NCBI GenBank assembly: GCA_021818955.1
Contig: JAKASR010000003.1
Coordinates: 186,001-250,000 of the forward strand
Direction of reading: 5' to 3'
DNA length: 64,000 nt
DNA from: Acidobacteriota bacterium
GTDB lineage: Bacteria > Acidobacteriota > Terriglobia > Terriglobales > SCQP01
The notes under the pieces are model-generated. The model saw only the letters and a list, made by a program, of their open reading frames with translations. It ran no database searches and had not been told where the DNA came from. A program made the translations under genes and the position numbers. This document shows positions 4,315 through 38,332 of this stretch, piece by piece (within the stretch, counting starts at the first letter, position 1; the number at the start of each line of letters is the position of its first letter).

Positions 4315-4367
4315 GCGGCACGGCCGCTTTTACTTTTAGGCGCTGACGCTTTCGCAAAGGTCCGGCC
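4315..4367 (+). repeat. Mosaic palindromic repeat, copy A (truncated)
   Basis: Contains module H1 (a 13-nt palindrome, gcggcacggccgc), the T-rich link ttttactttt, the conserved ggcgctgacgctttcgcaa stretch and the first arm of module H2 (gtccggcc). It then diverges. It sits between divergent genes (DUF4097 on minus, O-methyltransferase on plus). It is the shortest of six copies, in the same orientation as all the others. Confidence 0.85.
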
Positions 4368-4457
4368 CCAAAGCGGAAGCATGCAGAGATGCTGCTTGGG
4401 CGCCGTTATATGATGGCTGAATACGCGTCTGGCGCGCTCTTTCTTCCCGGAGGAATC

Positions 4458-5477
4458 ATGCCGACGAGGACTCAAGCCACCCCTCCATCGCCCGAGCCGG
4501 TGTTTGCCGCGATGTGGGCCTATCAACAGACTGAAGCCTTGCGGGCTGCAATCGAGCTCGATCTGTTCACCGCCATTGGTTCCGGCGCCGCCCACCCGGC
4601 GGCGTTGGCCGAGCGTACCCGAGCCACTGAGCGCGGGGTGCGCATCCTTTGTGATTTCCTGACCATTCAGGGTTTACTGTCCAAACATGATGGCACTTAT
4701 GAGCTGACGCCGGCCGCGGCCAATTTTCTGGACCGCCGCTCGCCGGCCTTCATGGGTGACATGATGCGCTTCATCGCCGGCAAGGAGATGCAGGCCGACT
4801 TCCGGCGGCTGGCGCAGTCGGCCCGCGGCGAGATCAAGTCGACTCCCGAAGTGGATGAGCCGAACTGGCGGGGCTGGATCGAATTTGCGCGTTCGATGAC
4901 GCCGCTGATGCGGCCGCAATCGGAATTCCTGGCCAGCCGTTTTGCGCCGGGCGCCGCCGGCACGGTGCTGGATGTCGCCGCCGGGCATGGCTTATTCGGG
5001 ATTGCCTTCGCGCGGCATAATCCTGACCTCAACATCATCGCGCTCGATTGGCCGGAGGTGCTGACGGTGGCCAAGGAACATGCCGCACAAGCCGGCCTGG
5101 ACGCCAGCCGTTACCGGACGCTGTCCGGCAGCGCGCTGGAAATCGGCTTCGGCGAGAACCATCGTTTTGTGCTGCTGACGAATTTCCTGCACCACTTCGA
5201 CTCCGCCACCTGCGAGCGCCTGCTCCGGAAAGCGCAGGCGGCGCTACAGCCGGGCGGACAGGTCGTCGTGCTGGAGTTCGTGCCGAATGACGACCGGGTT
5301 TCGCCGCCTTTTTCGGCGGCATTCAGCCTGACCATGCTAGCCAGCACTCCGCGGGGAGATGCCTATACCTGGCAAGAACTGCTACGGATGCTGCAGGCTG
5401 CCGGCTTCGACGAACCGACAATCGAACCCGTGCCGCATTCGCCGCAATCGGCGATCTGCGCCCGGCGGAAAGCCTGA
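4458..5477 (+). CDS. SAM-dependent O-methyltransferase (acetylserotonin/hydroxyindole OMT-like)
   Basis: 339 residues. An N-terminal winged-helix dimerisation domain (about 10-95, AAIELDLFTAIG then ERTRATERGVRILCDFL) is followed by a Methyltransf_2 Rossmann domain with the SAM-binding motif VLDVAAGHGLFGIAFA and the acidic residue in IIALDWPEVL, then NFLHHFDSATCERLLRKA. The ATG at 4458 has a good ribosome-binding site, GGAGGA, 3 nt upstream of the spacer. It is monocistronic, with no biosynthetic neighbours that name a substrate. Small-molecule O-methylation is inferred from the family. Confidence 0.85.
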   Translation: MPTRTQATPPSPEPVFAAMWAYQQTEALRAAIELDLFTAIGSGAAHPAALAERTRATERGVRILCDFLTIQGLLSKHDGTYELTPAAANFLDRRSPAFMGDMMRFIAGKEMQADFRRLAQSARGEIKSTPEVDEPNWRGWIEFARSMTPLMRPQSEFLASRFAPGAAGTVLDVAAGHGLFGIAFARHNPDLNIIALDWPEVLTVAKEHAAQAGLDASRYRTLSGSALEIGFGENHRFVLLTNFLHHFDSATCERLLRKAQAALQPGGQVVVLEFVPNDDRVSPPFSAAFSLTMLASTPRGDAYTWQELLRMLQAAGFDEPTIEPVPHSPQSAICARRKA

Positions 5478-5557
5478 CGCCGCGGGCCTGCTTCCGCCAG
5501 GCGGCAAGCAAATAAGCGTTAACCGCCGCCGGAATACGTTGAGGTTGAGGAACCGTG

Positions 5558-6088
5558 ATGGCAATCTGGGATTTTGAGCCGGGACATAGCAGCGCGGAAT
5601 TCGCGGTGCGGCACATGATGGTGACCTGGGTGCGAGGCGGGTACAAGAACCTGCGCGGCTCACTCAATTGGGATCCGGACCGGCCGGGAGAAGGCTCGGT
5701 CGAGGTTGAAATCCCGGCCGCATCGTTTACGACGGAAGAGCCGGAGCGCGACGCGCACCTGCGTAGCGCGGATTTTCTCGATATCGAGCATTTTCCCGTG
5801 ATGATTTTTCGCAGCCGCGCGATCGAAGTTACCGGCTATCGCCAATTGCACGTGCATGGCGAGTTGACCTTGCGTGGCATCACCGGGCCGGTCATGCTGG
5901 AAGTCGAAGAATGCCTGGGGCCGGTGCTCACTCCGTTTCAGAACACGCGCCTCGGCTTACTCGCGCGGGCGCGCCTTGATCGCGAGGAATTCGGGATGAA
6001 TTGGGACTCGCCCATGCCGGGCGGCGGCCGGGTGGTAGGGAAATATATTGATGTCACGCTGGATATCGAAGCCATCCGGCGGGAATAA
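5558..6088 (+). CDS. YceI family protein (lipocalin-like beta-barrel)
   Basis: 176 residues starting MAIWDFEPGHSSAEFAVRHMMVTWVRG, the characteristic YceI N-terminus (W-x2-D-x2-HS-x2-F-x-VRHMM). LRSADFLDIEHFPVMIFRS and LTLRGITGPVMLEV are further family signatures. YceI proteins bind isoprenoid-type lipids in a beta-barrel. No signal peptide is evident, so this one is probably cytoplasmic. A GTG at 5555 is also possible, but GAGG at 5547-5550 is better spaced (7 nt) for the ATG at 5558. Confidence 0.92.
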   Translation: MAIWDFEPGHSSAEFAVRHMMVTWVRGGYKNLRGSLNWDPDRPGEGSVEVEIPAASFTTEEPERDAHLRSADFLDIEHFPVMIFRSRAIEVTGYRQLHVHGELTLRGITGPVMLEVEECLGPVLTPFQNTRLGLLARARLDREEFGMNWDSPMPGGGRVVGKYIDVTLDIEAIRRE

Positions 6089-6153
6089 TGCGCCGCGCTT
6101 CTTCTATGCTTGTATGGCCTGGTTTCCTCTATCTCCTATCCCCGGGTTTTCCT

Positions 6154-6438
6154 TCATCTATTCTGATCGTGCCAAGAGGCGGCGGGAGCGAAATATTGCA
6201 ATAGCTTGACCACGCCAATCACGACCAGCAATACCGGCCAGGTACGGGAAACATCCCAGCGGTGCCAGATAGTTTGCAGCGCGAACAGCACGCCGATGGT
6301 GATCAGCACGATCGGGCCCATGATGTGACGGCGGCGGCAGCGCGGGCAGGTGCAGGCCGGCGGCGGCGGCGGCGCGGCCGGCGGAGAAAAGGGAGTGCCG
6401 GCAGGATAATTCGATGCTGGCGGAGGTTGAGTACTCAT
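6154..6438 (-). CDS. Small LiaF-like (DUF5668) membrane protein
   Basis: 94 residues. A proline-rich N-terminus (residues 1-30) leads to a CTCPRCRRRH zinc-ribbon-like motif and then two hydrophobic segments (GPIVLITIGVLFALQTIW and WPVLLVVIGVVKLLQYF) matching the LiaF transmembrane pattern also seen in the 2889-4238 and 6479-7090 genes. It is the last gene of the sigma/anti-sigma operon (41 bp after the preceding gene), so it may be a sigma-controlled envelope protein. The start at 6438 is chosen because the upstream part of the frame overlaps the preceding gene. Confidence 0.7.
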   Translation of the reverse strand: MSTQPPPASNYPAGTPFSPPAAPPPPPACTCPRCRRRHIMGPIVLITIGVLFALQTIWHRWDVSRTWPVLLVVIGVVKLLQYFAPAASWHDQNR

Positions 6439-6478
6439 AAGATCGCTCGTCCTGTTACCTGCATGCGCGGTTTTCGGG

Positions 6479-7090
6479 TCAAGACCGGCGGCGGAGCATG
6501 AGCACACCAAAAAAGATCAGGATTCCGGGGCCGATGAAGCGAAACAGATTGCCATAAAGCCAGCCCAGATTTTCCAAGAGCAATAAGGTGCCCAGCACGA
6601 CCAGGATCGTGGGCCAAACCGGGAAAGACCATTGTATATGTCCAAAGCCGGGGAAATCCTCCACCGGCTGGCCGAGCGAGAGCAGGCGCGCGGTGCGGTA
6701 GGAATCGATCACCATATAGAAATAGAAGGCCGCGGTCGCCAAGCCAAAGATCACGCCAACGGGCCCATGTTGCAACGCAATCAGGGTTCCGAAGATGATT
6801 ACCTGGAGCACGGCTTTGAGGTATTGCCCGTTGTAAATCGCGCCCACGCCGGGAATAAAGCCCAACGCCAGCGCCAGGCCGGGATTCGGAGCGGCAACCG
6901 GCGGCCCGGGGGACACCGGCAGCGGACCGGGTTGAGCCGGCTGAAACGGTGGCGGCGCGGCCGCGGCGGCGGCGCAATCGGGACAGTAGATCAAGCCATA
7001 AATTTCATGGCGGTCTTCTTCGCACAGTGCCCGGCCGCAGGTACGGCAGTAAGCGGCAGCGGCGCGTTCGGAATGACGATAGCAGTTCAT
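6479..7090 (-). CDS. B-box/zinc-ribbon membrane protein of an ECF sigma operon
   Basis: 203 residues. The N-terminal zinc-binding pattern (NCYRHSERAAAAYCRTCGRALCEEDRHEIYGLIYCPDC) is B-box-like. A proline-rich linker follows, then several transmembrane segments: GLALALGFIPGVGAIYNGQY resembles TM2-domain proteins, and the C-terminal pair (FPVWPTILVVLGTLLLLENLGW, IGPGILIFFGVLML) resembles LiaF. The start overlaps the anti-sigma stop as ATGA, so it is translationally coupled. The function is unknown; membrane association linked to stress sensing is inferred. Confidence 0.75.
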   Translation of the reverse strand: MNCYRHSERAAAAYCRTCGRALCEEDRHEIYGLIYCPDCAAAAAAPPPFQPAQPGPLPVSPGPPVAAPNPGLALALGFIPGVGAIYNGQYLKAVLQVIIFGTLIALQHGPVGVIFGLATAAFYFYMVIDSYRTARLLSLGQPVEDFPGFGHIQWSFPVWPTILVVLGTLLLLENLGWLYGNLFRFIGPGILIFFGVLMLRRRS

Positions 7091-7791
7091 ACGCACCTGC
7101 CTTTCCAATCCGGCTCCGTCTCTATTCGCGCCAGCGACCAGCCGGTGAGGGACGCAGGGGGAACGGCGGGGCGGGTGCGGGCCAAAGTCCGGGTACCCGG
7201 ATTCCAATTATAGGGAGGCCGTTGGCTCTGCCCGGAAGGATGGGCGGGCGGAACCGGGGACGATTGACGGCTTCCGGCATGCAATGCGGCCTGAATTTCA
7301 TAAACCACGCGCAGGTCATTGTAATACCGCACGCCACGCGCATAGACCCGGCGCACGGTACGGCTGACCAGGCTTGGCCAACGGGCGGGCGCCAGGTCGG
7401 CCGCGTGAATCCGATTGAGATGAGTGCCGGAAACGTTCAACAGCAGGGCCAGGCTGAACCAGGCCAAGGCCAGGCCCATGGCGAAGCGGGGCTGCCATAG
7501 CATCCGCCCCAGGCTGCGGAGAGTCGGGCCCCAGCCGGCGAGGTTTTGGCGCTGGCCGCTGGTGCGGGCCAGCACGGTGGGAATAAAGTCGGGCGGCAAC
7601 TCCGGCATCGGCAGGTCGGCCAGCGCATCCAGGGCGCTATGCAAGCCCTCGAGCAAGCGCCCGCAGGCGGGACATTGGCGAGCATGCTGGCGCATGGCGG
7701 CGGCGGCCGCATCGGGCAAGCGGCCTTCGAGAAAGTCGCTGGCTTGCTCTTCGAAGCGCGGGCAATCGAGGCTATCGAAGAAGTCGTTCAT
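7087..7791 (-). CDS. Anti-sigma factor with zinc-finger (zf-HC2) domain
   Basis: 234 residues. The N-terminal ZAS-type motif is HARQCPACGRLL (H36, C40, C43). A cytoplasmic linker leads to a single hydrophobic segment at about 103-121 (FAMGLALAWFSLALLLNVSG), and the C-terminal part would be periplasmic. This is the layout of membrane-bound anti-sigma factors that sequester an ECF sigma factor. It overlaps the sigma gene upstream and the membrane protein downstream, each by 4 bp (ATGA), so the three are produced together. Confidence 0.88.
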   Translation of the reverse strand: MNDFFDSLDCPRFEEQASDFLEGRLPDAAAAAMRQHARQCPACGRLLEGLHSALDALADLPMPELPPDFIPTVLARTSGQRQNLAGWGPTLRSLGRMLWQPRFAMGLALAWFSLALLLNVSGTHLNRIHAADLAPARWPSLVSRTVRRVYARGVRYYNDLRVVYEIQAALHAGSRQSSPVPPAHPSGQSQRPPYNWNPGTRTLARTRPAVPPASLTGWSLARIETEPDWKGRCV

Positions 7792-8540
7792 AACATTCTC
7801 GTTCCTTTGCGCAAGCGCGGCGCCAGATGGCGGGCCAGCTCAATCCGTCCGCGATTAATCCGCGATTTAACCGTCCCTTCGGGAATGCGCAGCACTGCGG
7901 CAATTTCCTTGTAATCGTAATCCTGCAGGTCGCGCAAGATCACCGCTTCGCGCAGCTCGGGCGAGAGGCGGGCGAGCGCGGCCTGCACCTCATCGCGCAA
8001 TTCGCGCTGCCAGACACCGGCATCCGGCTGCCGCTGCCGCGATTCGACCGGCGCGGGCGGGGTGTTATTGGGGTCATCGAGGGAATCGGTGCTGCGTTCA
8101 AGGCGCGAGCGGCGATAGTGGTCAATCAACAGGTTGCGCGTCAACGCCGTCATCCAGGTAGCCAGCGAGCCCTGGGCCGGATCATACGATGTCAGTGCGC
8201 GGTAGATGCGCAGCAGAGCGTCTTGAGCGAGGTCTTCAGCCTGGGCGGAGTTGCCGGTAAAGCGCAGGCATAGCTGGTACAGGCGCGGCGAATGGCGGCG
8301 CACAATTTCTTCCCAGGCGCGCGCCTCGCCTCCCAAGCAGCGCTGCACCAGTTGGCGTTCTTCCACTTTATCAGCCACCTTCCCAAACGCGGCAGCGGGG
8401 CGGCCCAGCCAGGTAAAAGTCCTGGCGGGCAGCGGCTGGCGGGCGGCAATGGATGCGGCGTTCACATCTTCTAGAACGCAAAAACCATTCCCGCAGTTCA
8501 ATATAAAGAAGTTTTTCCGATCTGGCTCGGGGATTTTCAC
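7788..8540 (-). CDS. ECF-type RNA polymerase sigma factor
   Basis: 250 residues with a non-conserved N-terminal extension of about 55 residues. Region 2 (WEEIVRRHSPRLYQLCLRFTGNSAQAEDLAQDALLRIYRAL) and region 4 (LPELREAVILRDLQDYDYKEIAAVLRIPEGTVKSRINRGR) are intact. The start used is the GTG at 8540 (MKIPEPDRKNFF); a shorter protein starting inside the extension is possible. It is the first gene of a sigma/anti-sigma/membrane protein operon. The linker between regions 2 and 4 is rich in Asn and Pro. Confidence 0.88.
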   Translation of the reverse strand: MKIPEPDRKNFFILNCGNGFCVLEDVNAASIAARQPLPARTFTWLGRPAAAFGKVADKVEERQLVQRCLGGEARAWEEIVRRHSPRLYQLCLRFTGNSAQAEDLAQDALLRIYRALTSYDPAQGSLATWMTALTRNLLIDHYRRSRLERSTDSLDDPNNTPPAPVESRQRQPDAGVWQRELRDEVQAALARLSPELREAVILRDLQDYDYKEIAAVLRIPEGTVKSRINRGRIELARHLAPRLRKGTRML

Positions 8541-8608
8541 CGCCTGCCGTATTCAGCTATCTTCCCTAGATTCATTGCCAATACAAACTCGGATGTCTTG
8601 GGCCGCTT

Positions 8609-8614
8609 TATACT
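8609..8614 (+). promoter_or_regulatory. -10-like box TATACT upstream of the flippase-like gene
   Basis: TATACT lies 80 nt before the ATG at 8695 in the divergent region between the sigma gene and the flippase-like gene. A well-spaced -35 is not obvious, so this is only a candidate. Confidence 0.3.
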
Positions 8615-8694
8615 GGCGTTAAGCCAACGGCAACTTTCATTCGTCAGGCGCCCTGGTAACGATAACGCCATCCATCGCCAGCATCCCCACCCGC

Positions 8695-9744
8695 ATGAAA
8701 TCCAAGCGCACGTTAGTGACCGTGGCCATAATCCTGGGGCTGCTTTGGCTGGCGTATCACTTTCTGAGGCACGGATCCAATTTGCACAGCTTCAGTTGGC
8801 GCCGGTTATGGCAGGTCACGCTGACGATGCGGCTGTGGATGTTATTGTTGGCCTTGAGTTTAAGCTACTTCGCCTATATTTTGCGGGCGCTGCGCTGGCA
8901 GGTACTGATGCCTCCGGGCGGGCGCTTCTGGCCGATCTTGAAAGGCACTTTGATCGGCTTCACCGGAGTCGCCTTGCTGGGACGGCCGGGCGAGTTGATC
9001 CGCCCCTATTACATTGCGCGCAAGCTGCACGTGCGTTTCCCCGACCAGATGACGGTTTGGGTGGTGGAGCGTACCTTCGATATGGGCACCACGGGTTTGC
9101 TGCTGGGCCTGGCGCTATGGCTGAGTCCCAACCTTTCGGCGTTGCTGCGCAGTACGGGCGACATCACGGAGATCCATCGGGGAGGCCAAATCATTCTGAT
9201 CCTGGTGGTCTGCCTGATCGTTTTATTAGGGTGGATTTACCGTTATGGCATGCGCCTGAGCGAGCAATTGCACCATCACCCTGCCACCTGGCGGCGAAAG
9301 CTGGAAAGCGTGCTGCGCCAGTTAAGCCGCGGCATGCATGGCGGCATCTCGTCGCCCACGCGCCTGGCCTTGTCGCTAGCCTGCAGCGCGGCCATGTGGC
9401 TGACCATCGCCTGGTCCACGCAAGCTCTGGTGCTGGCCTATCCCCACATGCTGCCGGACTTCAGCTTGGGCCAGGCCATTCTGCTGATGGGGCTGGTTTC
9501 GCTCGGCTCGCTTGTGCAGTTGCCGGCCATTGGCGGCGGCATGCAAGTGGCGGCTGCGCTGGCCTTAACTAAATTTTTCGGGGCAGCCTCGGTGCCCGCG
9601 ACCTCGACCGCGCTGCTGCTTTGGATTCTCTCGTTTTACGCCATTGCCCCTTTCGGGGTGTATTTCGCCGCCCACGAAGGCATCTCTTGGCGGCGGGCCG
9701 GGCGGGAAGCGCTGGCAGCGGAAACCGCGGCCACGGAAAAATAA
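8695..9744 (+). CDS. LPG-synthase-TM/flippase-like integral membrane protein (UPF0104)
   Basis: 349 residues, mostly hydrophobic, with 7-8 membrane segments. Conserved points of the family are RALRWQVLM, the ALLGRPGELIRPYYIARK loop and the VVERTFDMG segment, and later LGSLVQLPAIGGGMQVAAALALTKFFG. Members are lipid flippase-like domains, either fused to aminoacyl-phosphatidylglycerol synthases or alone; here the synthase domain is absent. No strong ribosome-binding site precedes the ATG. The substrate is unknown. Confidence 0.85.
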   Translation: MKSKRTLVTVAIILGLLWLAYHFLRHGSNLHSFSWRRLWQVTLTMRLWMLLLALSLSYFAYILRALRWQVLMPPGGRFWPILKGTLIGFTGVALLGRPGELIRPYYIARKLHVRFPDQMTVWVVERTFDMGTTGLLLGLALWLSPNLSALLRSTGDITEIHRGGQIILILVVCLIVLLGWIYRYGMRLSEQLHHHPATWRRKLESVLRQLSRGMHGGISSPTRLALSLACSAAMWLTIAWSTQALVLAYPHMLPDFSLGQAILLMGLVSLGSLVQLPAIGGGMQVAAALALTKFFGAASVPATSTALLLWILSFYAIAPFGVYFAAHEGISWRRAGREALAAETAATEK

Positions 9745-9755
9745 AACCTAAAAGC

Positions 9756-9788
9756 GGGCGGCGGAAAGCATTTTGCCTTCCGCCGCCC
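9756..9788. terminator. Bidirectional rho-independent terminator
   Basis: An 11-bp perfect stem (gggcggcggaa at 9756-9766, ttccgccgccc at 9778-9788) with an 11-nt loop lies between convergent genes. On the minus strand the stem is followed by gcttttaggttttat; on the plus strand by cacccccgtttt. It best fits the minus-strand lipoprotein gene but could serve both. Confidence 0.8.
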
Positions 9789-9810
9789 ACCCCCGTTTTC
9801 GCTCGAATTT

Positions 9811-11244: not shown

Positions 11245-11488
11245 CGTTTGCTCCATTGTTAATTTGCCCGCGGCGGAGGCCGTAGGCAGAGTTGGCCGCA
11301 TGTTAATTAGCAATCTAAAGCCCAATTCCCATTCTGGACATTATATTTCGCCAGCTCAGTTAGTTGCGAGTCTGGAACTGATTTCCCGCTCAGTCATTTT
11401 TCGAATTGCTCCGGGAAATTATTCACTTAAACCGGTAATCCGGGAACACTGGCGAACGGGATCGCTGCAAAGGCGCGCCGGCAAAATT

Positions 11489-11494
11489 TATAAT
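11489..11494 (+). promoter_or_regulatory. -10 box TATAAT 7 nt before the era start codon
   Basis: A perfect TATAAT ends 7 nt before the GTG at 11502, with no Shine-Dalgarno sequence between. Transcription from it would start at or next to the GTG, giving a leaderless mRNA. The -35 region is weak. Confidence 0.6.
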
Positions 11495-11501
11495 TGAACT
11501 T

Positions 11502-12467: not shown

Positions 12468-12604
12468 GTTAACGTAACCGGCTAAACGCCGGGCGGTTTA
12501 CAAGGGAGTGCCTCGCGCCTGGCCCGAATTCATTCCCGGCCGCATCTTTATTGATTATTGTTGACTTTTCTATCGTTATCGAGACAGTGTGGCCCGATCC
12601 CTAG

Positions 12605-12610
12605 TAGAAT
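12605..12610 (+). promoter_or_regulatory. -10-like box TAGAAT 7 nt before the nrdR start codon
   Basis: TAGAAT ends exactly 7 nt before the ATG at 12618, the same geometry as at era. GAGACA at 12581-12586 with an 18-bp spacer is a possible -35. No Shine-Dalgarno sequence is present between the box and the ATG. Confidence 0.5.
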
Positions 12611-12617
12611 TACCGCC

Positions 12618-16368: not shown

Positions 16369-16586
16369 GCGGCTCGGCCGCTTTTACTTTTAGGCGCTGA
16401 CGCTTTCGCAAGGGTCCGGCCGAAACCGGACGCATTGCGAATCCTCATGGACAGCAGGCATGGCCGGGCGCAATTCCTGCGGAATTGCTTTGTATTGTCG
16501 TTCATAGGCGCGGGACCTAAGCGGAACCCCGCGCTTCGGCCTGCAATTTCGAACGAAACTACTGCCCGACTCGGCCGTTAACGCTT
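16369..16586 (+). repeat. Mosaic palindromic repeat, copy B
   Basis: 218 bp. Modules in order: H1 at 16369-16381 (gcggctcggccgc) followed by ttttactttt; H2 at 16414-16431 (gtccggccgaaaccggac); H3 at 16470-16488 (gcaattcctgcggaattgc); H4 at 16508-16534 (arms gcgcggg and cccgcgc); then the right end ccgactcggccgttaacgct. H5 is degenerate. It lies between ybhB and queG, both on the minus strand. The minus-strand frame running through it is not a gene. Confidence 0.92.
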
Positions 16587-21215: not shown

Positions 21216-21466
21216 GCGGCTCGGCCGCTTTTACTTTTAGGCGCTGACGTTTTTGCAATGGTCCGGCCGAAGCCGGACGCTTGGCGAAAACTCATGACTG
21301 CCGGGCATTGCCGGGCGCAATTCCCGCGGAATTGCCGGCTTGCTTGATGCAATTCCTGCGGAATTGCTTTGTTTTGTCGTTCCCAGGCGCGGGACCTAAC
21401 CGGAACCCCGCGCTTCGGCCTGCGATTGCGGATGAAAACTGCTGTCCGACTCGACCGTTAACGCTT
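21216..21466 (+). repeat. Mosaic palindromic repeat, copy C
   Basis: 251 bp. H1, the T-rich link and H2 (here gtccggccgaagccggac, whose changed loop base extends the stem) are followed by two tandem versions of H3 (gcaattcccgcggaattgc and gcaattcctgcggaattgc), H4 and the right end ccgttaacgctt. The duplicated H3 with a changed loop shows modular growth. It lies upstream of the cytochrome gene (minus) and of the aspS operon (plus). Confidence 0.92.
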
Positions 21467-21696: not shown

Positions 21697-22206
21697 TTGG
21701 CTACTCAAATCCAAGTTGTCGAGTATCTGCGCGTCGAGCGCCGCAGCTATCTCTGGGGCAGCATTCTGGTATTGCTGATCGTCTATGCGGCGCAATTTGC
21801 GCTCATGATGATGCACCTGCCGCATGGCGCCCTGGTGCCTTCATCGGCGCACATGAACAGCCAGGCCCTGATGCAGCAAATGCACCAGCAATGGGCGCTG
21901 ATGCAGAAAATCACCCGGGAACATCCCATCGCCTTCATGCTGCTCTCGCTTTCGGGCACGCTGGCGACCTTGATCCTGAACATGCGCATCTCGATGCTGA
22001 TCAATCGCCCGCGCGGAGCCTTCGGACCGGAATCCCGTAGTGGACTGCGCTGGACCTGGCTGCTGTTGCTGGCCGCCGGCCCGGTCTTGTTGCCGCCGCT
22101 GGAAATTGTCCTCATCGTACTGCTGACACGATGGGCCAGTCAGGAGATCCGGGCGCGCGCGGCCGCCAGTGGGGCGGGCGCTGGGCCGGCACAGGCCGTC
22201 TCATGA
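21697..22206 (+). CDS. Small membrane protein of unknown function, coupled to aspS
   Basis: 169 residues. The first hydrophobic segment is at about 22-40 ([20 protein letters not shown]). A Met- and Gln-rich loop ([20 protein letters not shown]) follows, then hydrophobic stretches around 92-108 and 125-150 ([25 protein letters not shown]). I do not recognise a family. The start is uncertain: TTG at 21697 has no ribosome-binding site, but a GATAAT box lies 5 nt upstream. The stop overlaps the aspS start by 4 bp (ATGA), which supports it being a real gene. Confidence 0.65.
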
Positions 22207-24026
22207 AGCCTTCCGCCCCGATGCCTGAAACCACGCCCGTGCTATCGCCGCTGCCCGCGGCCGAACGTACCCACGGCTGCGGCGAATTACGCGCCGCCGA
22301 CGCCGGCCGCACCGCCATCCTCGCCGGCTGGGTGCAGCGTCGCCGCGACCTGGGCGCATTGATCTTTCTCGAACTTCGCGACCGCACCGGCGCGGTGCAG
22401 ATCGTGCTCAGCCGCGAGCGCGAGCCGCAACTGCACGCTCGCGCCGAAAGCCTGCGCTCCGAATACGTGGTCTGGCTGGAAGGCGAAGTGGTGCGGCGCG
22501 CGCCGGATACGGTGAACCCTCAACTCGCCACCGGAGAGATTGAAATCCACGCCACCCGGCTGGAAATTCTCAACGATTCCCGCACGCCGCCTTTTTCCCC
22601 CGCCGAGACCGCGCCGGTGGACGAAGAAACCCGGCTGCAATACCGCTTCCTCGACCTGCGGCGGCCGGCGATGCAGGCGAACCTGCAGCTCCGCCATGCC
22701 GTGACCTTCGCCATCCGGCATTACTTCAACCGGCAAGGCTTTCTCGAGATCGAAACCCCCTTCCTCACCCGCAGCACCCCCGAGGGCGCGCGCGATTATC
22801 TGGTGCCCAGCCGGGTGCATCCGGGCGAATTCTATGCCCTGCCGCAATCGCCGCAATTGTATAAGCAATTGCTGATGATGGGCGGCTGCGAGCGCTATTT
22901 CCAGATCGCGCGTTGTTTCCGCGACGAAGACTTGCGCGCCGACCGCCAGCCGGAATTCACCCAAATCGATCTGGAAATGAGCTTCCCGCATCAGGACCGG
23001 CTCTTTCACCTGATCGAAGGCATGCTAGCCGCCGCCTTCGCCGCCGCCGGCAAGTCGCTGCACACGCCGCTGCCACGCATGAGCTGGGAACAGGCCATGC
23101 GCGAATACGGCAGTGATAAACCCGACCTGCGCCTGCCGCCCATGGCCGATCTGGCCGGGCGCATTGCACCCGCCACCCGCGCCCAGCTCAAACTGCATGC
23201 CCAGCGGCCGCTCTGGGCCATCCGCATTCCGGCGGTCGGCGAGTTGTCGCGGCGCGAGCGCGATGAACTGCGCCCGCTGGCGGAAGGAAAGCGCATTCGC
23301 CTGTTTGAGGATTTCGCCCGCCTGCGCAAACTCGATCCCGCGCTGGCCGATGCCGCCGTTGAAGCCACCGACGCCGCTGAGGGCGATCTCCTGTTGCTGG
23401 CCGGAGCGGCGGAAGACACCGCGGCGGCGATTTGGGAACTGGCCGCCGAAGCCGGCGGACTGCGCCTCGCCGCCGCGCAGAAGTTTGCCGAACGCCATAA
23501 GCGGCAGCGGTCCGGCGATTTTCGCGCCTTGTGGGTGACCGAGTTTCCGATGTTCGAGTGGGACGAGCGCGAAGGCCGCTGGATGGCCGCGCACCACCCC
23601 TTCACGGCCCCGCGGGAATCCGACCTGGCTACGCTCGAAGCCGATCCCGCCGGGGCGCGCGCCCAGGCTTACGATGTGGTGCTGAACGGGGTCGAGCTGG
23701 GCTCCGGCTCCATCCGTATCCATCGCGCCGAAGTGCAACGGCGGATTTTTGCCCTGCTGGGCATGAATGAAGAAGAAGCGCAGCGGCGTTTCGGCTTTTT
23801 CCTCGAAGCGCTGCGCTACGGCGCTCCGCCGCACGGCGGCATCGCGCTCGGCCTCGACCGGCTGGTGATGATGCTGGCGGGCGAAAGTTCTATCCGCGAG
23901 GTCATCGCCTTTCCCAAAACCGCCAGCGCCGTGGATCTGCTCATGAATGCCCCGGCCGCCGTGCCGGAAGCGCAATTGAAAGAGCTGGGCTTGGCCTTGC
24001 GCCCGGGGCAAAAAGCCAGCAGCTAG
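22203..24026 (+). CDS. aspS: Aspartyl-tRNA synthetase
   Basis: 607 residues, bacterial type. The N-terminal OB-fold anticodon-binding domain ([27 protein letters not shown]) is followed by class II motifs ([82 protein letters not shown]), the GAD insertion (about 300-430) and the C-terminal [28 protein letters not shown]. It charges tRNA-Asp, or Asp and Asn tRNAs if the enzyme is non-discriminating. The ATG at 22203 is coupled to the preceding gene. The stop codon abuts and shares its last base with repeat copy D. Confidence 0.97.
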
Positions 24027-24191
24027 CGGCTCGGCCGCTTTTACTTTTAGGCGCTGACGCTTTCGCAAGGGTCCGGCCGAAACCGGACGCGCGGGACCTA
24101 ACCGGAACCCTGCGCTTCGGCCTGCGGGCATGGCTTGAGGCAATTTCTTCGAAATTGCCCATGACGAAAACTGCTGTCCGACTCGGCCGTT
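24026..24191 (+). repeat. Mosaic palindromic repeat, copy D, abutting the aspS stop
   Basis: 166 bp. H1 (gcggctcggccgc) begins on the last base of the aspS TAG stop, followed by ttttactttt, H2, then directly H4 (gcgggacctaaccggaaccc) with no H3, then H5 (caatttcttcgaaattg) and a right end cut at actcggccgtt. H1 plus the T-rich link would work as an intrinsic terminator for aspS. Confidence 0.92.
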
Positions 24192-26233: not shown

Positions 26234-26510
26234 GGAAGCGTTAGCGGCCGCGCCGCGGCGGCACGGCCGCTTTTACTTTAGGCGCTGACGCTTTCGCAAA
26301 AGTCCGGCCGAAACCGGACGCAGGGCGAATACTCATGGCTGCCGGGCATTGACAGGCGCAATTCCTGCGGAATTGCTTGGTATTGTCGTTCATAGGCGCG
26401 GGACCTAATAGGAACCCCGCGCGATACCGGCCTGCGGGCATAGCTAGAGGCAATTTCTCTGAAATTGCCAATGACGAAAACTGCTGTCCGACTCGGCCGT
26501 TAACGCTTCC
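26234..26510 (+). repeat. Mosaic palindromic repeat, copy E (complete, with terminal inverted repeats)
   Basis: 277 bp. The left end ggaagcgttagcggccg (26234-26250) and the right end cggccgttaacgcttcc (26494-26510) are 17-bp inverted repeats with one mismatch. Between them are H1 (from 26258), H2, H3, H4 and H5 (caatttctctgaaattg, with a loop different from copy D). It lies 17 bp after mutL. This copy has the fullest module set and is the reference for the family. No reading frame of its own makes a protein-like product. Confidence 0.9.
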
Positions 26511-30402: not shown

Positions 30403-30579
30403 GGCAGCACTATTATGACGCAGAATTCCAACCCGCGGTGTCGGGAATGCATCCGCCCAGTCACCCTGATTCAGTCATAGCCTTTCGTCCTCCTGCCGAC
30501 CATCCGGTAAGCCTAATTCTTGGCGGCTCAGTGTCTTATCGCTTCCACTCGCGTGTTATACCAAAATCAGGAGGCGGGC

Positions 30580-31722: not shown

Positions 31723-31735
31723 GGCGGTCAAATCC

Positions 31736-31741
31736 TATACT
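31736..31741 (+). promoter_or_regulatory. -10 box TATACT 6 nt before the meaB start codon
   Basis: TATACT ends 6 nt before the ATG at 31748; no Shine-Dalgarno sequence lies between. TTGAAG at 31711-31716 is a possible but poorly spaced (19 bp) -35. It suggests a leaderless internal promoter between the acyl-CoA dehydrogenase and meaB. Confidence 0.5.
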
Positions 31742-31747
31742 GAAATC

Positions 31748-32719: not shown

Positions 32720-32778
32720 TAGCACTCCTCGCCGCAGCCATCATCCCGCCAAAAAGCATGGGAAGATAGGGATTCGTC

Positions 32779-33189
32779 ATGTCGCCAGCGCTGGATCATT
32801 TGGGCATCGCGGTCGCCGATCTGGAAGCGGCCCTCGCCATATACCGCCGTCTTGGCCTGGAAGCCGCGGGACAGGAAGAGATTGCGCAGGAAGGCGTGCG
32901 GGTGGCCATGCTGCCGCTATCCGGCAGCCGGCTGGAGTTGCTGGAAGCCACCCGCCCCGACTCGTCCATTGCCCGTTTTCTGGCGCGGCGCGGTCCCGGG
33001 CTACATCACATCGCTTTGCGGGTCACCGGCCTGGCGCGCATGGTGGAGAATTTGCGCCAGGCCGGAGCGCAATTTACGCAAACCGAAATTCAAACCGGCG
33101 CCGGCGGGCATAAATATATTTTTCTGCACCCGGCAAGCGCCGGCGGTGTGCTGATTGAATTGGTCGAGGAGGCCGCCGATGGCGTCTGA
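32779..33189 (+). CDS. mce: Methylmalonyl-CoA epimerase
   Basis: 136 residues, a glyoxalase-fold (VOC) protein with the epimerase signature LDHLGIAVADLEAALAIYRRLG (metal ligand H7), LRLELLEAT-type strand SGSRLELLEATRP, GPGLHHIALRV (second His ligand) and VLIELVEE (Glu ligand near the end). It interconverts (S)- and (R)-methylmalonyl-CoA between propionyl-CoA carboxylase and the mutase. It overlaps mtnP by 11 bp. The length is that of the family. Confidence 0.95.
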   Translation: MSPALDHLGIAVADLEAALAIYRRLGLEAAGQEEIAQEGVRVAMLPLSGSRLELLEATRPDSSIARFLARRGPGLHHIALRVTGLARMVENLRQAGAQFTQTEIQTGAGGHKYIFLHPASAGGVLIELVEEAADGV

Positions 33190-34051
33190 AGCGGAGATTG
33201 GAATTATTGGAGGCAGCGGTCTTTATGCGCTGCCGGGAATCGAAGCGGGGCGGGAAATCAAGCTGGAGACCCCGTTCGGCCCGCCCTCCGATGCCTATTT
33301 TGTCGGCCGGCTGGAAGGCCGGCAAGTCGCCTTTCTCGCCCGCCATGGACGCGGCCACCGTCTGCTGCCCTCGGAGCTGAATTTTCGCGCCAATATTTAT
33401 GGCTTCAAACTGCTGGGCATCGAGCAGTTGATTTCGGTTTCCGCCGTCGGCTCGCTCAAGGAAGAGTTGCGGCCCTTGGATTTGGTTCTGCCCGACCAGT
33501 TCGTGGACCGCACCCGCGGCCGCATCTCCACTTTTTTCGGCGACGGCCTGGTGGCGCACATCGGTTTCGCCGATCCCATCTGCTCGCGGTTGCGCGGCGT
33601 GCTCGCCGACGCCTGCCGCTCCGCCCGCGTCAAGGTCCATAACGGCGGCATTTACCTTTGCATGGAAGGTCCGGCCTTCTCCACCCGGGCGGAATCGCAA
33701 CTGTATCGTTCCTGGGGCATGGATGTAATCGGGATGACCAATCTGCAGGAAGCGAAGCTGGCGCGCGAGGCCGGCCTCTGTTTCGCCACCGTCGCCATGG
33801 TCACCGATTACGATTGCTGGCACCCCGGGCATGACGCCGTCACCATTACCGAAGTGCTAACCAACTTGCAGCGCAATGCCGAAAACGCCGCCCGCGTGCT
33901 TCGCGCCGCGGTGGCAAGCCTGGCGCCGGGAAAGCGCGATTGCGGTTGCGCCCGCGCCCTGGAACATGCGCTGGTTACCGATCCCGCCGTGGTTCCGGAG
34001 GCGACCCGGCGCAAGCTGGCGCCGATTCTGGGCCCTTGGCTGCGCGCCTGA
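33179..34051 (+). CDS. mtnP: S-methyl-5'-thioadenosine phosphorylase
   Basis: 290 residues of the PNP/MTAP family. IGIIGGSGLYALPG (phosphate site), FLARHGRGHRLLPSELNFRANIYG, and the substrate loop GMTNLQEAKLAREAGLCFATVAMVTDYDCWHPG, whose DYDCW is typical of MTA phosphorylase rather than purine nucleoside phosphorylase. It splits methylthioadenosine into adenine and methylthioribose 1-phosphate. The ATG at 33179 has a strong GAGGAGG 6 nt upstream, inside mce. A PfkB kinase follows; the other methionine-salvage genes are absent. Confidence 0.93.
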   Translation: MASEAEIGIIGGSGLYALPGIEAGREIKLETPFGPPSDAYFVGRLEGRQVAFLARHGRGHRLLPSELNFRANIYGFKLLGIEQLISVSAVGSLKEELRPLDLVLPDQFVDRTRGRISTFFGDGLVAHIGFADPICSRLRGVLADACRSARVKVHNGGIYLCMEGPAFSTRAESQLYRSWGMDVIGMTNLQEAKLAREAGLCFATVAMVTDYDCWHPGHDAVTITEVLTNLQRNAENAARVLRAAVASLAPGKRDCGCARALEHALVTDPAVVPEATRRKLAPILGPWLRA

Positions 34052-34066
34052 AAATTGAAAATAATT

Positions 34067-35011
34067 ATGGCGACTCCACCTCAAATCTCTCCAGCGGCCG
34101 CGACGGTGCTTGCGGTCGGCTCGGTGGCCTTCGACTCGATCACGACCCCGCGCGGCCGCGCGGAGCGGGTGTTAGGCGGGGCGGCCACCTATTTCGCCCT
34201 GGCCGCCCGCCATTTCGCTCCGGTGCGGATCGTGGCCGTGGTGGGCGACGATTTTTTGCCCGCGCATGAGCAGTTGCTCGCATCTCGCGGCATCTGCCTG
34301 CGTGGTCTGCAACGCCGGTCGGGCAAATGTTTCTTTTGGGCCGGTGAATACGAGGCCAACCCCAACCTGCGCCGCACCCTGGCCACCGAACTGAACGTTT
34401 TCGCCGATTTCCAGCCGGAATTGCCGCAGGAATATCTTTCCAGCCCAGTGCTGTTTCTGGGCAATATTGCGCCTGAACTGCAAACCAGCGTCTGCCGGGC
34501 GCTGCCCGCGGCGCGCCTGGTCGGCGGCGATACCATGAACTACTGGATTCAAAGCCAGCCGGAGGCGGTGCGCGCTTTTCTCCGTCATCTCGATCTGCTG
34601 ATGATTAACGACAGCGAGGCGGTGGAGTTGAGCGGCGAATGGAATCTGGCATTGGCGGCGCGCAAGATCCGCGCGATGGGACCGAAGCAGGTCATCATCA
34701 AGCGCGGCGAGCACGGCGCCAGCTTGTACGCCCCGGAGGGCTGCTGCTCGATCTCCGGCTATCCATTGGAGGACGTCCGGGATCCCACCGGAGCGGGCGA
34801 TAGTTTTGCCGGCGGCGTCATCGGCTACCTGGCCTCGCAACCACAAGGCGATCCCGGCGCGCTCCGGCGCGCCCTGGTGTACGGCTCGGTGATGGGCAGC
34901 TTCGCTTGCGAGCGCTTTGGCGTCGAGCGCCTGCTCGATCTGACTCGCGAAGAAGTGGACACCCGCTATCGGGAATTTCTCGAGCTGTCGCGTATCCCCG
35001 ACGCCGTTTAA
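34067..35011 (+). CDS. PfkB family sugar/nucleoside kinase
   Basis: 314 residues. The N-terminal LAVGSVAFDSITTPRGRAERVLGGAATYFALAARHF carries the GG substrate motif; the ATP/anion-hole motif DPTGAGDSFAGG has the catalytic Asp245. LLMINDSEAVEL and VIIKRGEHGASLY are further family signatures. The start at 34067 is the first ATG; TTG at 34055 is also in frame. The position 15 bp after mtnP suggests a substrate linked to methylthioadenosine or nucleoside salvage, but sugar kinases of this family cannot be assigned from motifs alone. Confidence 0.85.
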   Translation: MATPPQISPAAATVLAVGSVAFDSITTPRGRAERVLGGAATYFALAARHFAPVRIVAVVGDDFLPAHEQLLASRGICLRGLQRRSGKCFFWAGEYEANPNLRRTLATELNVFADFQPELPQEYLSSPVLFLGNIAPELQTSVCRALPAARLVGGDTMNYWIQSQPEAVRAFLRHLDLLMINDSEAVELSGEWNLALAARKIRAMGPKQVIIKRGEHGASLYAPEGCCSISGYPLEDVRDPTGAGDSFAGGVIGYLASQPQGDPGALRRALVYGSVMGSFACERFGVERLLDLTREEVDTRYREFLELSRIPDAV

Positions 35012-35081
35012 AACCGGCAACCGGTTTCGCCGGACGATGCGGTTCGGGCCGGCCCCGGCGGCAGTGACCGCTTAAGGAAAA

Positions 35082-36707
35082 ATGCGATTGAGCGCCTCGG
35101 CTCCGGCAGCGTCAACCCCCGAGCGGCAGTCTATGCGCCGCCGTTGTTTGCCTCCAGCGCTGGTGTTTTTGGCGCCGGCCGGCATGGCCGCGGCGGTGGC
35201 TCTTTGGGGCTGGCGCACCGGCCGGCTGCTGCTCTATGGCGATGCGACCGCGCACCTGATGATCGCGCGCCGCATGCTCGACTCCGCCACCCCCGGGCTG
35301 GCGCAGTGGGGCAGCGTCTGGCTTCCTTTCCCGCATCTGCTCATGGCGCCCTGGGTGCAGGTGGATGCGCTCTGGCGGAGCGGCCTGGCGGGTTCGCTGG
35401 TTTCGATTATTGCCTACAGCCTGGCAACCCTCTGGCTTTATCGCCTCGCGGCACGTCATCTCGGCGAGCCGGCTGCGGTTCTAGCGGGATTGTTTTTCCT
35501 GCTCAATCCCAACCTTCTCTATCTTGCTTCGGTGCCCATGACCGAAACCGTTTATCTGGCCTGCTTTTTAGGCGCCGTGGATCAAATCAGCCGCTGGACG
35601 CAAACTTCCCGCATGGGGAATTATGGCGCGGTCTGGCTGGCCGGAGCCTGGGCCTTGGGCGGCGCCATGACGCGTTACGACGGCTGGTTCATGCTTCCCT
35701 TCTTCGCCCTTGTGCTAGCCGGCGCGGCCATGCCGGATTGGCGGCGCGCCTGGGGCGCGTTTTGGCGTTTCTGCCTGCTAGCGGGCTCCGGCCCGCTTTT
35801 CTGGTTTGCTTACAACGCCTATTATTATGGCGATTGGCTGGATTTCGCCCGCGGACCTTATTCCGCCCGCCAGATCTACTTGCGCGCCTTGCGGCACGGA
35901 GGCCAACGGTATCCCGGCGATCACCAGTGGCTGAACGCGCTGGTCTACTTCCTCAAGGCGGTGGAATTGGATTGCGGGCTGCCGCTGCTGTTGCTGGGCG
36001 CGATCGCATGGCTGCTCTGGATCTGGCAACACCGCGGCGATGCGGCTCGACCGCTTTTGACGAATTGCGTTCCATGCCTTTTATGGTTGCCCCTACCCTG
36101 GTATGTATGGGCCATGTGGACAGGCAACGTGCCGATTTTCGTGCCGATGTACTGGCCGCACGGCTACTATAATTTGCGCTATGGCGTGCAATTGCTGCCG
36201 GCGCTGGCGCTGTTCGCCGGCTGGCAAATCTGGCAACTTTTCCGGCGCGAAGGCGGCGGATGGCGAGGCGGTTGGGTCGCGGGGGCGCTCTGCGCGCTGC
36301 TGCTTCTCGGCTATCTGCGCATGTTTCGCGGGCGCGGCCCCATGGTCTATGCCGAAGCGGCCTATAATTCCACCGGCCGCCTGGCTCAGGAGCGCCAGTT
36401 AGCGGCGGCGCTGCGCCGCGTCCGCCCCGATGACAAAATTCTGATGTATATCGGCACGTTCCCCGGCGCGCTGGCTGACGATGGCATCGCCTTGAAACGC
36501 GTGATCAATGAATCCAATTACCAGCTTTGGGACAATGCCCTGCGCCGTCCTCAACGTTATGTCGAGTGGATCGTGCTTGAACGCCACACCTGGCTGGCGC
36601 GCGGCCTGAACCGCCGGGCGCTAGGACGCTATTTCACCCCTGCCGGCCAGTTGCATGTTCCCGGCCAACACACTATCACGCTTTATCGCCGCATCCGTCC
36701 CGACTGA
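35082..36707 (+). CDS. Dolichyl-phosphate-mannose-mannosyltransferase-like membrane glycosyltransferase
   Basis: 541 residues. A first membrane segment (ALVFLAPAGMAAAVALWGW) is followed by the GT39/GT83-like acidic loop LLLYGDATAHLMIARRMLD (catalytic-type Asp), then about ten membrane segments (AAVLAGLFFLLNPNLLYLASV with MTETVYLACFLGA). A soluble C-terminal part follows (VRPDDKILMYIGTFPGALADDGIALKRVINESNYQLW). These proteins transfer sugars from polyprenyl phosphates in the periplasm. The ATG at 35082 has AAGGA upstream. The acceptor is unknown. Confidence 0.78.
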   Translation: MRLSASAPAASTPERQSMRRRCLPPALVFLAPAGMAAAVALWGWRTGRLLLYGDATAHLMIARRMLDSATPGLAQWGSVWLPFPHLLMAPWVQVDALWRSGLAGSLVSIIAYSLATLWLYRLAARHLGEPAAVLAGLFFLLNPNLLYLASVPMTETVYLACFLGAVDQISRWTQTSRMGNYGAVWLAGAWALGGAMTRYDGWFMLPFFALVLAGAAMPDWRRAWGAFWRFCLLAGSGPLFWFAYNAYYYGDWLDFARGPYSARQIYLRALRHGGQRYPGDHQWLNALVYFLKAVELDCGLPLLLLGAIAWLLWIWQHRGDAARPLLTNCVPCLLWLPLPWYVWAMWTGNVPIFVPMYWPHGYYNLRYGVQLLPALALFAGWQIWQLFRREGGGWRGGWVAGALCALLLLGYLRMFRGRGPMVYAEAAYNSTGRLAQERQLAAALRRVRPDDKILMYIGTFPGALADDGIALKRVINESNYQLWDNALRRPQRYVEWIVLERHTWLARGLNRRALGRYFTPAGQLHVPGQHTITLYRRIRPD

Positions 36708-36710
36708 GCC

Positions 36711-37547
36711 ATGCATTTCGCCAAAGCAGAAGCCAACGGCAATGATTTTTTGCTGATCGAGCTTGATGCTTGCGCCGGCCGGGAACGCGGCCGGCTGGCG
36801 CGGGTGCTTTGCGATCGGCACCGGGGTTTAGGGGCCGATGGCGTCGAATTTTATTCCCGCGATGGCGGCCGCATCCGACTCGAGTTGATCAACGCCGACG
36901 GCAGCGCGGCCGAGATTTCCGGCAATGGCACGCGTTGCGCCGCAGCGTGGATGGCGCGCCAGCATGGGTTTCGTGAAGGCGCGATTCTGACCGGTGGCGG
37001 CGAGCGCTGGACGAAAGTCCTGGGCGAAGCGAACGGCGTCTGGGAAATCGAGAGCCGCATGGGCGCACCGGATTGGCGCCCGGAGGCGGTGCCGCTGCGC
37101 GGCGCGCATGCGCTCGACAACGGGCGCTGGCGTTTACGCCTGCCGGCATGGGGCGAGTTGGAATGCCACGCGCTCTCGCTGGGGAATCCCCAGGCCTGCG
37201 TGCAGGTCGAGACGTTCGCCGAAAACTGGATGCAACTGGCCGCCGCTATCCAAAATTCCGGGTATTTTCCCGCCGGGGTCAATGTCGAATTCTGGCGGCG
37301 GGTGAACGACCGGGCAATCGAGATTCGTATCTATGAGCGCGGCGTAGGCGCGACCCTTTCCAGTGGAACCGGCAGCACCGCGGCAGCCATCTCGGCGTTA
37401 ACCGTTGGCGCCGTGCGCTCGCCGGTACGCGTCATCAGCCCCGGCGGCGAACAAACAGTCGCCTGGGAGGGCGCTGGCCAGCAAACCCATTTGCGCGGCG
37501 GGGCGCGCATCATTGCTGAGGGCGAGTACCTGGGGACCGTGCCTTGA
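36711..37547 (+). CDS. dapF: Diaminopimelate epimerase-like protein with second catalytic Cys replaced by Ser
   Basis: 278 residues with the DapF fold: NGNDFLLIE at the start, HRGLGADGV, the first active-site motif EISGNGTRCAA (Cys76), the middle hinge LSLGNPQACV, and the second motif ERGVGATLSSGTGSTAA. Canonical DapF has CGSG or CGTG in the last motif; here the codon at 37362-37364 is AGT, Ser218. One of the two thiol bases is therefore missing. It may be a DapF with altered mechanism, or an isomerase with another substrate. It overlaps plsC by 4 bp (TTGA). Confidence 0.8.
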   Translation: MHFAKAEANGNDFLLIELDACAGRERGRLARVLCDRHRGLGADGVEFYSRDGGRIRLELINADGSAAEISGNGTRCAAAWMARQHGFREGAILTGGGERWTKVLGEANGVWEIESRMGAPDWRPEAVPLRGAHALDNGRWRLRLPAWGELECHALSLGNPQACVQVETFAENWMQLAAAIQNSGYFPAGVNVEFWRRVNDRAIEIRIYERGVGATLSSGTGSTAAAISALTVGAVRSPVRVISPGGEQTVAWEGAGQQTHLRGGARIIAEGEYLGTVP

Positions 37548-38239
37548 TCCGTTTCTGGCTTATCGCCATCGTCACTTGGTTCTACATGCTGCTGGGGATG
37601 GTATTCGGCCTGCCGGTTTATCTGGCGACCCGTAACCTGCAGGTGCTGTATTTTATTGCCCGCCAAGGCATTGGATTGCTTTTATGGCTGGCCGGCATCC
37701 GGGTGCGCATTATGGGAAAGCCGCCGCGGGCGGGCCGGCTGATATATATGGCCAATCACCAGAGCTACCTGGATCCGCCAATCCTGCTGTGGGCGCTGCC
37801 CGGCTGTCCCTCCATCCTGGCGAAACAGGAGCTGTTTCGGGTTCCCGGATTGGGACTGATTATGCGTTTGGGCAAGCTGGTGCCGGTGCCGCGCGGTCAG
37901 GAAGCGGCCCATGCCAGCATTGATCAGGCGGCGGAGATGTTAACCGCCGGGCGGCCCTTTCTGGTCTTTCCGGAAGGCACACGTTCCACCGATGGCCGCC
38001 TGCTGCCCTTCAAAACCGGCGTTTTTGTGCTGGCGCTGAAAGCATCCGCCCAGGTTGTGCCCATCAGCTTGTCGGGCACTCATGCACTGCTGCCCTCAAA
38101 CCGCCGGCGCCTCCGTTCAGGACAGGTAGAGCTGCGTTTCCATCCGCCGATTGACGCGTCCGCATATGGAGATAAAGAAGAACTGCTCGCGGTTACGCGA
38201 ACAGCTATCGCGGCGGGATTACCGCCATCCGGGAAATAA
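37544..38239 (+). CDS. plsC: 1-acyl-sn-glycerol-3-phosphate acyltransferase
   Basis: 231 residues. An N-terminal membrane segment (LIAIVTWFYMLLGMVFGLPVYLA) is followed by the acyltransferase motif NHQSYLD (H72, D77), a region with PVPRGQEAAHASI and the substrate motif FPEGTRS. It makes phosphatidic acid from lysophosphatidic acid at the inner membrane. The start is the TTG at 37544, overlapping the dapF stop; no better ATG precedes the membrane segment. Repeat copy F lies 19 bp after the stop. Confidence 0.93.
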   Translation: MIRFWLIAIVTWFYMLLGMVFGLPVYLATRNLQVLYFIARQGIGLLLWLAGIRVRIMGKPPRAGRLIYMANHQSYLDPPILLWALPGCPSILAKQELFRVPGLGLIMRLGKLVPVPRGQEAAHASIDQAAEMLTAGRPFLVFPEGTRSTDGRLLPFKTGVFVLALKASAQVVPISLSGTHALLPSNRRRLRSGQVELRFHPPIDASAYGDKEELLAVTRTAIAAGLPPSGK

Positions 38240-38257
38240 CCCGAGCCGGCCCGCGCG

Positions 38258-38332
38258 GCGGCTCGGCCGCTTTTACTTTTAGGCGCTGACGCTTTCGCAA
38301 AGGTCCGGCCGAAACCGGACGCATTGCGAATA
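38258..38332 (+). repeat. Mosaic palindromic repeat, copy F (H1-H2 only)
   Basis: About 75 bp with H1 (gcggctcggccgc from 38258), ttttactttt, the conserved link and H2 (gtccggccgaaaccggac), then attgcgaatactc as in copies B and E, where it stops. It lies between convergent plsC and lpxD and could terminate plsC. A GC-rich inverted stretch (gagccggcc / ggctcggcc) directly precedes it. Confidence 0.9.

Follow-up and report, generated by a model that had tools for sequence, protein, structure and literature searches.

The 64,000-nucleotide stretch of DNA analysed here (the window) covers positions 186001 to 250000 of contig 29 of G000, a 3.80-Mb acidobacterial draft genome that is 96% complete, and it holds six copies of a hairpin-bearing repeat. 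We found that these copies belong to a genome-wide family of non-coding, modular elements with exact ends and a fixed base beside their insertion sites, and that the copies point one way over long blocks of the chromosome. The family is probably a non-autonomous element whose insertion, brought about in trans, uses single-stranded DNA, probably of the lagging strand, in the manner of IS200/IS605-derived repeats. The search with a 19-mer of the left core gave six matches in the window at up to three mismatches, all on the + strand, where 0.09 were expected and none of 100 shuffles reached six; the six repeats described in an earlier note on this DNA are thus present at their places. In the whole of G000, the left core was found 184 times forward and 153 times in reverse (337 matches at ≤3 mismatches; 0 + 2 for a reversed-pattern control) and the right end 166 + 147 times (313 at ≤3 mismatches; control 0 + 1). 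With these hundreds of dispersed matches, the family is therefore genome-wide and not a product of local duplication, a possibility that the earlier note had raised. It had also considered a known RNA family, and here the window gave no Rfam match at gathering thresholds. Stretches examined amount to about 1.58 of the 3.80 Mb of G000 and, for G001, a sister species of the same genus with a genome of about 3.7 Mb, to 0.78 Mb.

The ends of the element are exact: copies start with GCGGC and end with CGCTT, or with ACTC in a short form. End analysis was carried out with 81 of 86 copies, the other five having been filtered out by pattern or as duplicates. The G before CGGC at the left boundary is present in 81/81 of these complete copies and in 258/270 of a wider set, with an A preferred two bases outside the boundary (127/270). 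On the right side, the fourth base after the end (+4) is a G in 75/81 complete copies, in 203 of 233 right ends (a set that overlaps the 81), in 34/38 right-end-only remnants of G000 and in 14/15 right ends of G001. The same G follows three copies from G004 and G008, two genomes of another genus (g4) of the same taxonomic family, whose right ends were read by eye. Short-form ends carry it in 38 of 48 cases, whereby some of the 48 are probably long copies missed by the filter. Target duplication was not found over the 81 copies, the mean longest flank match being 4.93 compared to 4.67 in shuffled flanks. The sole copy with a long flank match is L018 (1440-1790), where 14 bases around AAATGATCACTTT stand on both sides. 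When the joined flanks of 166 copies were used as queries against G001, six gave matches spanning the junction. Two of these identify empty orthologous sites (contig 12, near 350 and 352 kb) that align without a gap at the junction, so that empty sites, which the earlier note had suggested looking for in close strains, exist in the sister species. Three of the other four had too many gaps to be read, and the last one hit element sequence; at further G001 loci the interval is shorter by about one element, with flanks too diverged to place the junction. Copies were dispersed after the split from the sister species. An IS608-like guide pairing of the right end with the target was rejected, since no covariation was seen.

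The copies are built from hairpin modules. Short copies of about 78 nt consist of H1 and H2; besides these there are a 189-nt core and longer copies with extra 30-nt hairpin units. The commonest lengths among 166 two-ended copies are 189 (25 copies), 219 (13), 249 (11), 251 (11), 222 (8), and 252 nt (6), in a tally that runs one base higher than the 81-copy end analysis. Judged by its counterparts in G001 and G004, the 189-nt form, in which H3 and H5 are missing, may be the older core. The 30-nt units rest on two related hairpins, CAATTCC..GGAATTG and CAATTTC..GAAATTG. By-eye reading indicated that the interior is dispensable, as several copies without it retain both ends. In 1.17 Mb of G000, 58 copies are core-only. 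The end point lies at element positions 72-79 in 28 of them (27 at 73-79) and in 20 at positions 77-79, which is ACTC or within one base of it. Long copies read ACTC|ATGG at the corresponding internal site; because this fits the target rule of the short form, it suggests that long copies may have arisen from the short form joined to a neighbouring piece, whereby ATGG belonged to the filter that defined long copies, so that its near-constancy there is no independent test. Independent movement of H3 and H5 was also considered and rejected: only 8 of 234 regular-expression matches in the 1.17 Mb lie at least 350 bp from an element end, in a tally where many matches were counted twice and two of the eight distant ones resemble a diverged element.

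The left end has a near-terminal palindrome in H1, and the right end has one in H6 (TCGGAC..GTCCGA), which stands just before it. Across 18 core copies, taken from three species and two genera, 90.5% of the cells pair in six helices, compared to 30-43% when the pattern is slid, with 98.9% in helix 1 and 81.9% in helix 6. The covariation check proposed in the earlier note came out in favour of the stems, with six pairs changed on both sides in the 18 copies against a shuffled mean of 2.4 (2 of 500 shuffles were as high). The clearest case, seen by eye, is H6, where a g4 copy has GCATT/AATGC in place of the GGAC/GTCC of G000. This supports that the hairpins are under selection; covariation cannot tell DNA from RNA. 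G-T and A-C mismatches in the stems showed no clear strand preference in a noisy count.

The second main feature is the orientation. Of 65 copies, 59 lie outside predicted genes; gene prediction here, as in the 1.17-Mb orientation analysis below, relied on a simple codon score and not on a standard gene finder. The genes flanking these 59 run with the element in 23 cases, against it in 14, divergently in 12 and convergently in 10; thus, element orientation is not tied to flanking genes. Neighbouring copies agree with each other: for the first 100 exact places among the matches listed, 69/75 adjacent pairs of cores and 61/75 of right ends have the same orientation, and neither value was reached by any of 20,000 permutations. 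In the 1.17-Mb stretches 126/142 adjacent pairs agree, compared to 48-65% for genes at equal distances; this concordance is biased upwards because these contigs were chosen after most were known to be one-way, and the unselected core and right-end listings are the fair counts. Copies without the long right end match the orientation of the nearest complete copy in 52/53 cases. The GC skew at third codon positions (GC3 skew) agrees in sign with element orientation at 116 of 150 loci. When 12 blocks were given all 2048 sign assignments, the top k-mer asymmetry agreed with the elements in 10-11 blocks. Of the 18 loci available in G001, 16 agree by AT skew and 15 by GC skew within 10 kb, and 14 and 13 within 20 kb. 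The one-way orientation over long blocks thus matches strand composition, clearly in G000 and in G001 on only 18 loci, and since it tracks strand composition we infer that it tracks replication. If the polarity is replicational, the copies would also preserve, like fossils, the direction of replication and the rearrangements in genomes of uncultured bacteria.

Taken together, the exact ends, the dispensable interior, the missing duplication, the fixed base, and the polarity led us to propose that a recombinase acts in trans on single strands. Such a recombinase would read GCGGC and the H1 hairpin on the left and CGGCCGTTAACGCTT or the alternative ACTC on the right, and would join the element to a target with a G four bases downstream (^NNgGa) without target duplication. 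The + strand of the element lies in, and would be inserted into, the A+G-rich strand, which is presumably the template for lagging-strand synthesis. Its chemistry would probably be single-stranded, as in the 'peel and paste' of IS200/IS605, with the hairpins serving as recognition marks. In this group, IS target words touch the left end. Excision from and insertion into the lagging-strand template are reported for it in the portions of PMC5371812 and PMC6006769 consulted, and IS608 and ISDra2 are described to target this template with an orientation that follows replication (PMC5371812, in part).

Several observations weigh against this explanation. Right-end-only remnants are less polar, with 23/34 agreeing with the nearest complete copy. 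The elements' own assignment of the 12 blocks ranks 21-46 of 2048 and not first; the block C12:25-118 kb is opposite in composition, two blocks disagree at k ≥ 3, and on contig C22 the GC3 skew runs counter to the elements. For G001, GC skew taken over whole stretches fits only 11/18 loci (AT 15/18), and of eight left-end-only 17-mer matches, set aside as likely chance, three agree by AT skew. The dnaA gene (C36:46952-48250) has 11 same-way loci on its left and offers no flip to test, and the skew near it is unsuited to an origin beside dnaA; replication direction is deduced from strand composition. The fixed base lies 4 nt past the right end, unlike the left-end target word of IS200/IS605. 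Finally, PF01797 (Y1_Tnp/RAYT) had no match in the 96%-complete G000, Y1_Tnp was not found in either g4 genome carrying the family (one 54% complete, the other 89%), and the single Y1 gene of G001 has no element ends within about 1.5 kb.

The earlier note had seen no RAYT in the window, and this holds for the whole draft genome. It had also proposed to look for a transposase with matching ends; among Y1 genes, none was found in G000, and none of the 13 Y1 loci listed for relatives in the taxonomic family has element ends within about 1.5 kb. The G001 Y1/RAYT-like gene (L349, G001:C40) adjoins an array of GGGGACGTCCTGGGGAAAACT-like units, which is unrelated to the element. IS110 (DEDD transposase) was absent from G000 and G001 and present in 5/14 control genomes. 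A search for IS91/Helitron-like Y2 enzymes gave no match in G000, and none in any control genome either. A group II intron or retron was rejected, as the sole PF00078 reverse transcriptase (RT) of G000 is a 698-aa open reading frame (ORF) that reads by eye as an RT-Cas1-type CRISPR protein. This RT + Cas1-like fusion ORF (L329, G000:C28, ~104.8-105.4 kb) stands beside a Cas6-like ORF, both named by eye, and the locus is probably a type III CRISPR locus with RT-Cas1. An autonomous parent was not identified either: five pairs of left and right ends lie 400-4000 bp apart in 1.17 of the 3.80 Mb, and they enclose ordinary or no predicted genes by eye. Overall, G000 yielded no enzyme among Y1, IS110, and suitable RTs; transposase families other than these and Y2 were not searched. 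It may be that the enzyme has disappeared from the genome, is encoded in the 4% that the assembly lacks, or is of a kind outside those searched. A tentative possibility for the last case is a so far unrecognised recombinase coupled to the replication fork, distinct from Y1, Y2, and IS110, which would use two right ends and the +4 G and insert mostly one way per region.

Rather unlikely, in our view, is that the family is a REP/TIR-type repeat moved by a RAYT or TIRYT, i.e., a domesticated Y1 enzyme, that has since disappeared or is encoded in the missing 4%. A single-strand mechanism of this kind would account for the polarity, 8 of the 14 genomes of the taxonomic family have Y1 genes, and TIRYT genes of Acidobacteria and a TIR repeat family of Koribacter are described in the portion of PMC3733652 consulted. 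Repetitive extragenic palindromes (REP), REPINs, and TIR repeats are abundant extragenic hairpins, for which a single-strand transposase has been proposed (PMC3733652, PMC3116915, each in part), and the element resembles them in being abundant, extragenic, and hairpin-bearing. It is unlike REP and REPIN in that there is no GTAG/GTGG foot (the ends are GCGGC, CGCTT, or ACTC) and there are no inverted doublets; moreover, copies are 78-311 nt or longer and multi-hairpin, and no RAYT was found in the genome. With no PF01797 match in G000 and no ends at the Y1 genes of relatives, a REP/RAYT mobiliser was rejected as a candidate.

It is unlikely that insertion was random and that selection then kept one orientation, either for a polar chromosome signal (KOPS-like, architecture-imparting) or against replication harm. 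Co-orientation of neighbours over long blocks and conservation of stems and ends in three species and two genera would fit this, and the lower polarity of right-end remnants, perhaps non-functional, is what lost selection would permit. A further point in its favour is an unrelated repeat with the same polarity. Tandem 8-bp arrays of GC[GA]CA[GA]AG occur at C29:74607-76584, C12:198882-207267, C26:414-3604, and C24:36242, and all 21 array segments in 1.17 Mb of G000 point like the nearest element copy. Against selection speaks that copies lacking the long right end are as polar as complete ones; many of these are of the short form, which has no H3-H6, and any polar signal would therefore sit in H1-H2. 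The KOPS-like octamer GGGNAGGG, tried as a compass, had no clear polarity here and was uninformative.

A classical miniature inverted-repeat transposable element (MITE), with a DDE transposase reading the imperfect inverted ends AAGCG..CGGCCG and CGGCCG..CGCTT, is very unlikely. GCG and GGCCG are common to both ends in inverted order, interiors are dispensable, and the 14-base flank match of L018 is almost never given by shuffles. These inverted ends (GCG, GGCCG) pair in RNAalifold, with one terminal pair broken in each of the two g4 copies and further pairs in two more rows, which counts against a DDE enzyme, as does the missing duplication over 81 copies and at the two empty sites. Orientation polarity is unusual for DDE elements. 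On the DDE side, a case with polarity is Tn7 with TnsE (PMC5371812, in part). The comparison with MITE-type elements drawn in the earlier note thus stands in part: the copies are short, non-coding, and presumably trans-mobilised, with exact ends and empty sites, and target-site duplication was not seen (L018 excepted). The alternative comparison with BIME-type (bacterial interspersed mosaic) elements fails, since the copies are not alternating inverted palindromes and one orientation is common over long blocks. Hardly probable at all is an RNA-based element (retroposition, group II-like remnant) or a dispersed functional structured RNA, for which the stem covariation might speak and against which stand the CRISPR-type RT, the absence of Rfam matches in the window, copies in every orientation to genes, and the lack of a clear strand preference in the noisy mismatch count.

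By its behaviour, the element is closest to the PATEs and SMR of Haloquadratum. In the part of PMC3119063 consulted, PATEs of Haloquadratum walsbyi are IS605-related, short, and transposase-free, with near-terminal palindromes and no target duplication, and core-deleted versions retain only the ends. The element shares the lack of a transposase, the near-terminal palindromes, the lack of target-site duplication (L018 excepted), and the ends-only versions. It is unlike PATEs in that no IS605-type Y1 gene was found in its host G000 and its ends match no IS200/IS605 element there, and in the fixed G at +4 and the long-range polarity shown here. Where PATEs have no terminal inverted repeats, the ends of the element may form a short imperfect one. 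The same part of PMC3119063 describes SMR as transposase-free, without target duplication and with an enigmatic mobiliser, whereby SMR-A target other mobile elements; unlike SMR-A, the element is mostly at intergenic sites and polar along the chromosome. BOX of Streptococcus pneumoniae has fixed outer modules and a variable count of internal units (PMC3049150, in part). The element is likewise modular, but its sequence differs (not aligned) and its 30-nt units are H3 and H5, a pair of related hairpins; polarity, present here, is not claimed for BOX in the portion of PMC3049150 consulted. Membership of PATE, REP, and classical MITE each fails at least one tested feature, and we therefore class the element as a new variant among transposase-free mobile repeats. 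Abundant hairpin repeats without a visible mobiliser are a long-standing puzzle of bacterial genomes. The exact ends, simple target rule, and strong polarity make the mechanism testable here and would help to recognise the enzyme.

The host, a soil bacterium, reads as a Bryobacterales-like acidobacterium on account of the window's MutL, which has 80% identity to the acidobacterial metagenome-assembled genome (MAG) DBS2-1.bin132 and 49% to two Bryobacterales/Bryobacteraceae MAGs. G001 has a diverged version of the family with fewer copies, and the copies of G004 and G008 are still more diverged; the remaining 10 of the 14 genomes of the taxonomic family gave no element match at E ≤ 0.001. The 19-mer gave one or two matches per genome with 1-2 mismatches in other relatives, which look like chance. 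In public collections there was no match in plasmids and none for an exact 31-mer in genome_contigs, two exact end patterns matched nothing among viral contigs, and the repeat appeared in no title or abstract among the literature matches listed. Another abundant long repeat in G001 (L205 10.3-10.8 kb, many contigs) carries H5-like GCAATTTCTGCGAAATTGC and H4-like GGGTCGGGACCTGACAGGAAACCCCGACC hairpins and may be a cousin family. In addition, G001 has tandem arrays in which H3 is found apart from the element (L199 520-700, C62; L205 4140-4470, C31), with units of about 30 nt and about 135 nt, the ~135-nt array apparently lying in or next to a gene.

The copies of the window are listed in the following table.

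Copies of the repeat in the window, with strand and modules
Copy	Positions	Strand	Modules and ends
A	4315..4367	+	left end, H1, T-rich stretch, and core to the first H2 arm, then degraded or unrelated; 53-nt match from the left end
B	16369..16586	+	218-nt form with H1, H2, single H3, and H4, without H5; right end CGCTT intact, then CAGA
C	21216..21466	+	251-nt form with two H3 (30-nt unit), without H5; GTAG after the right end (+4 G)
D	24026..24191	+	H2 fused to H4 by internal deletion, H5 kept; right end stops at CGGCCGTT
E	26258..26508	+	complete 251-nt element with H1, H2, H3, H4, H5, and right end; then CCGG (+4 G)
Remnant	26236..26255	-	right end of another, opposite copy, directly adjoining copy E; then CCTG (+4 G)
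F	38258..38335	+	short form of ~78 nt with H1 and H2; ends ACTC, then AAAG (+4 G)

Compared to the earlier note, one change concerns copy E, which had been given a start at 26234: its true start is 26258, and bases 26236-26255 before it are the remnant of a different copy. The right end has three + strand matches in the window and one - strand match, the latter being this remnant. H5, listed before as part of a common module set, is present in D and E and missing from B and C in our by-eye reading. The description of A and F as H1-H2 only fits F, which is the recurrent short form and not a truncated long copy, and does not fit A, which breaks off within H2 and may be either truncated or degraded. 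That H3 is missing from D and doubled in C was read correctly, D having lost it in the deletion that joins H2 to H4 and C containing two 30-nt units. Copy B is an exception to the +4 rule with its G at +3, and copy D is without the last bases of the right end. The first G of copy D is at the same time the last base of the stop codon (24024-24026) of the upstream ORF 22131-24026, a putative aspS by eye, so that TA from the gene and G from the element make up the TAG.

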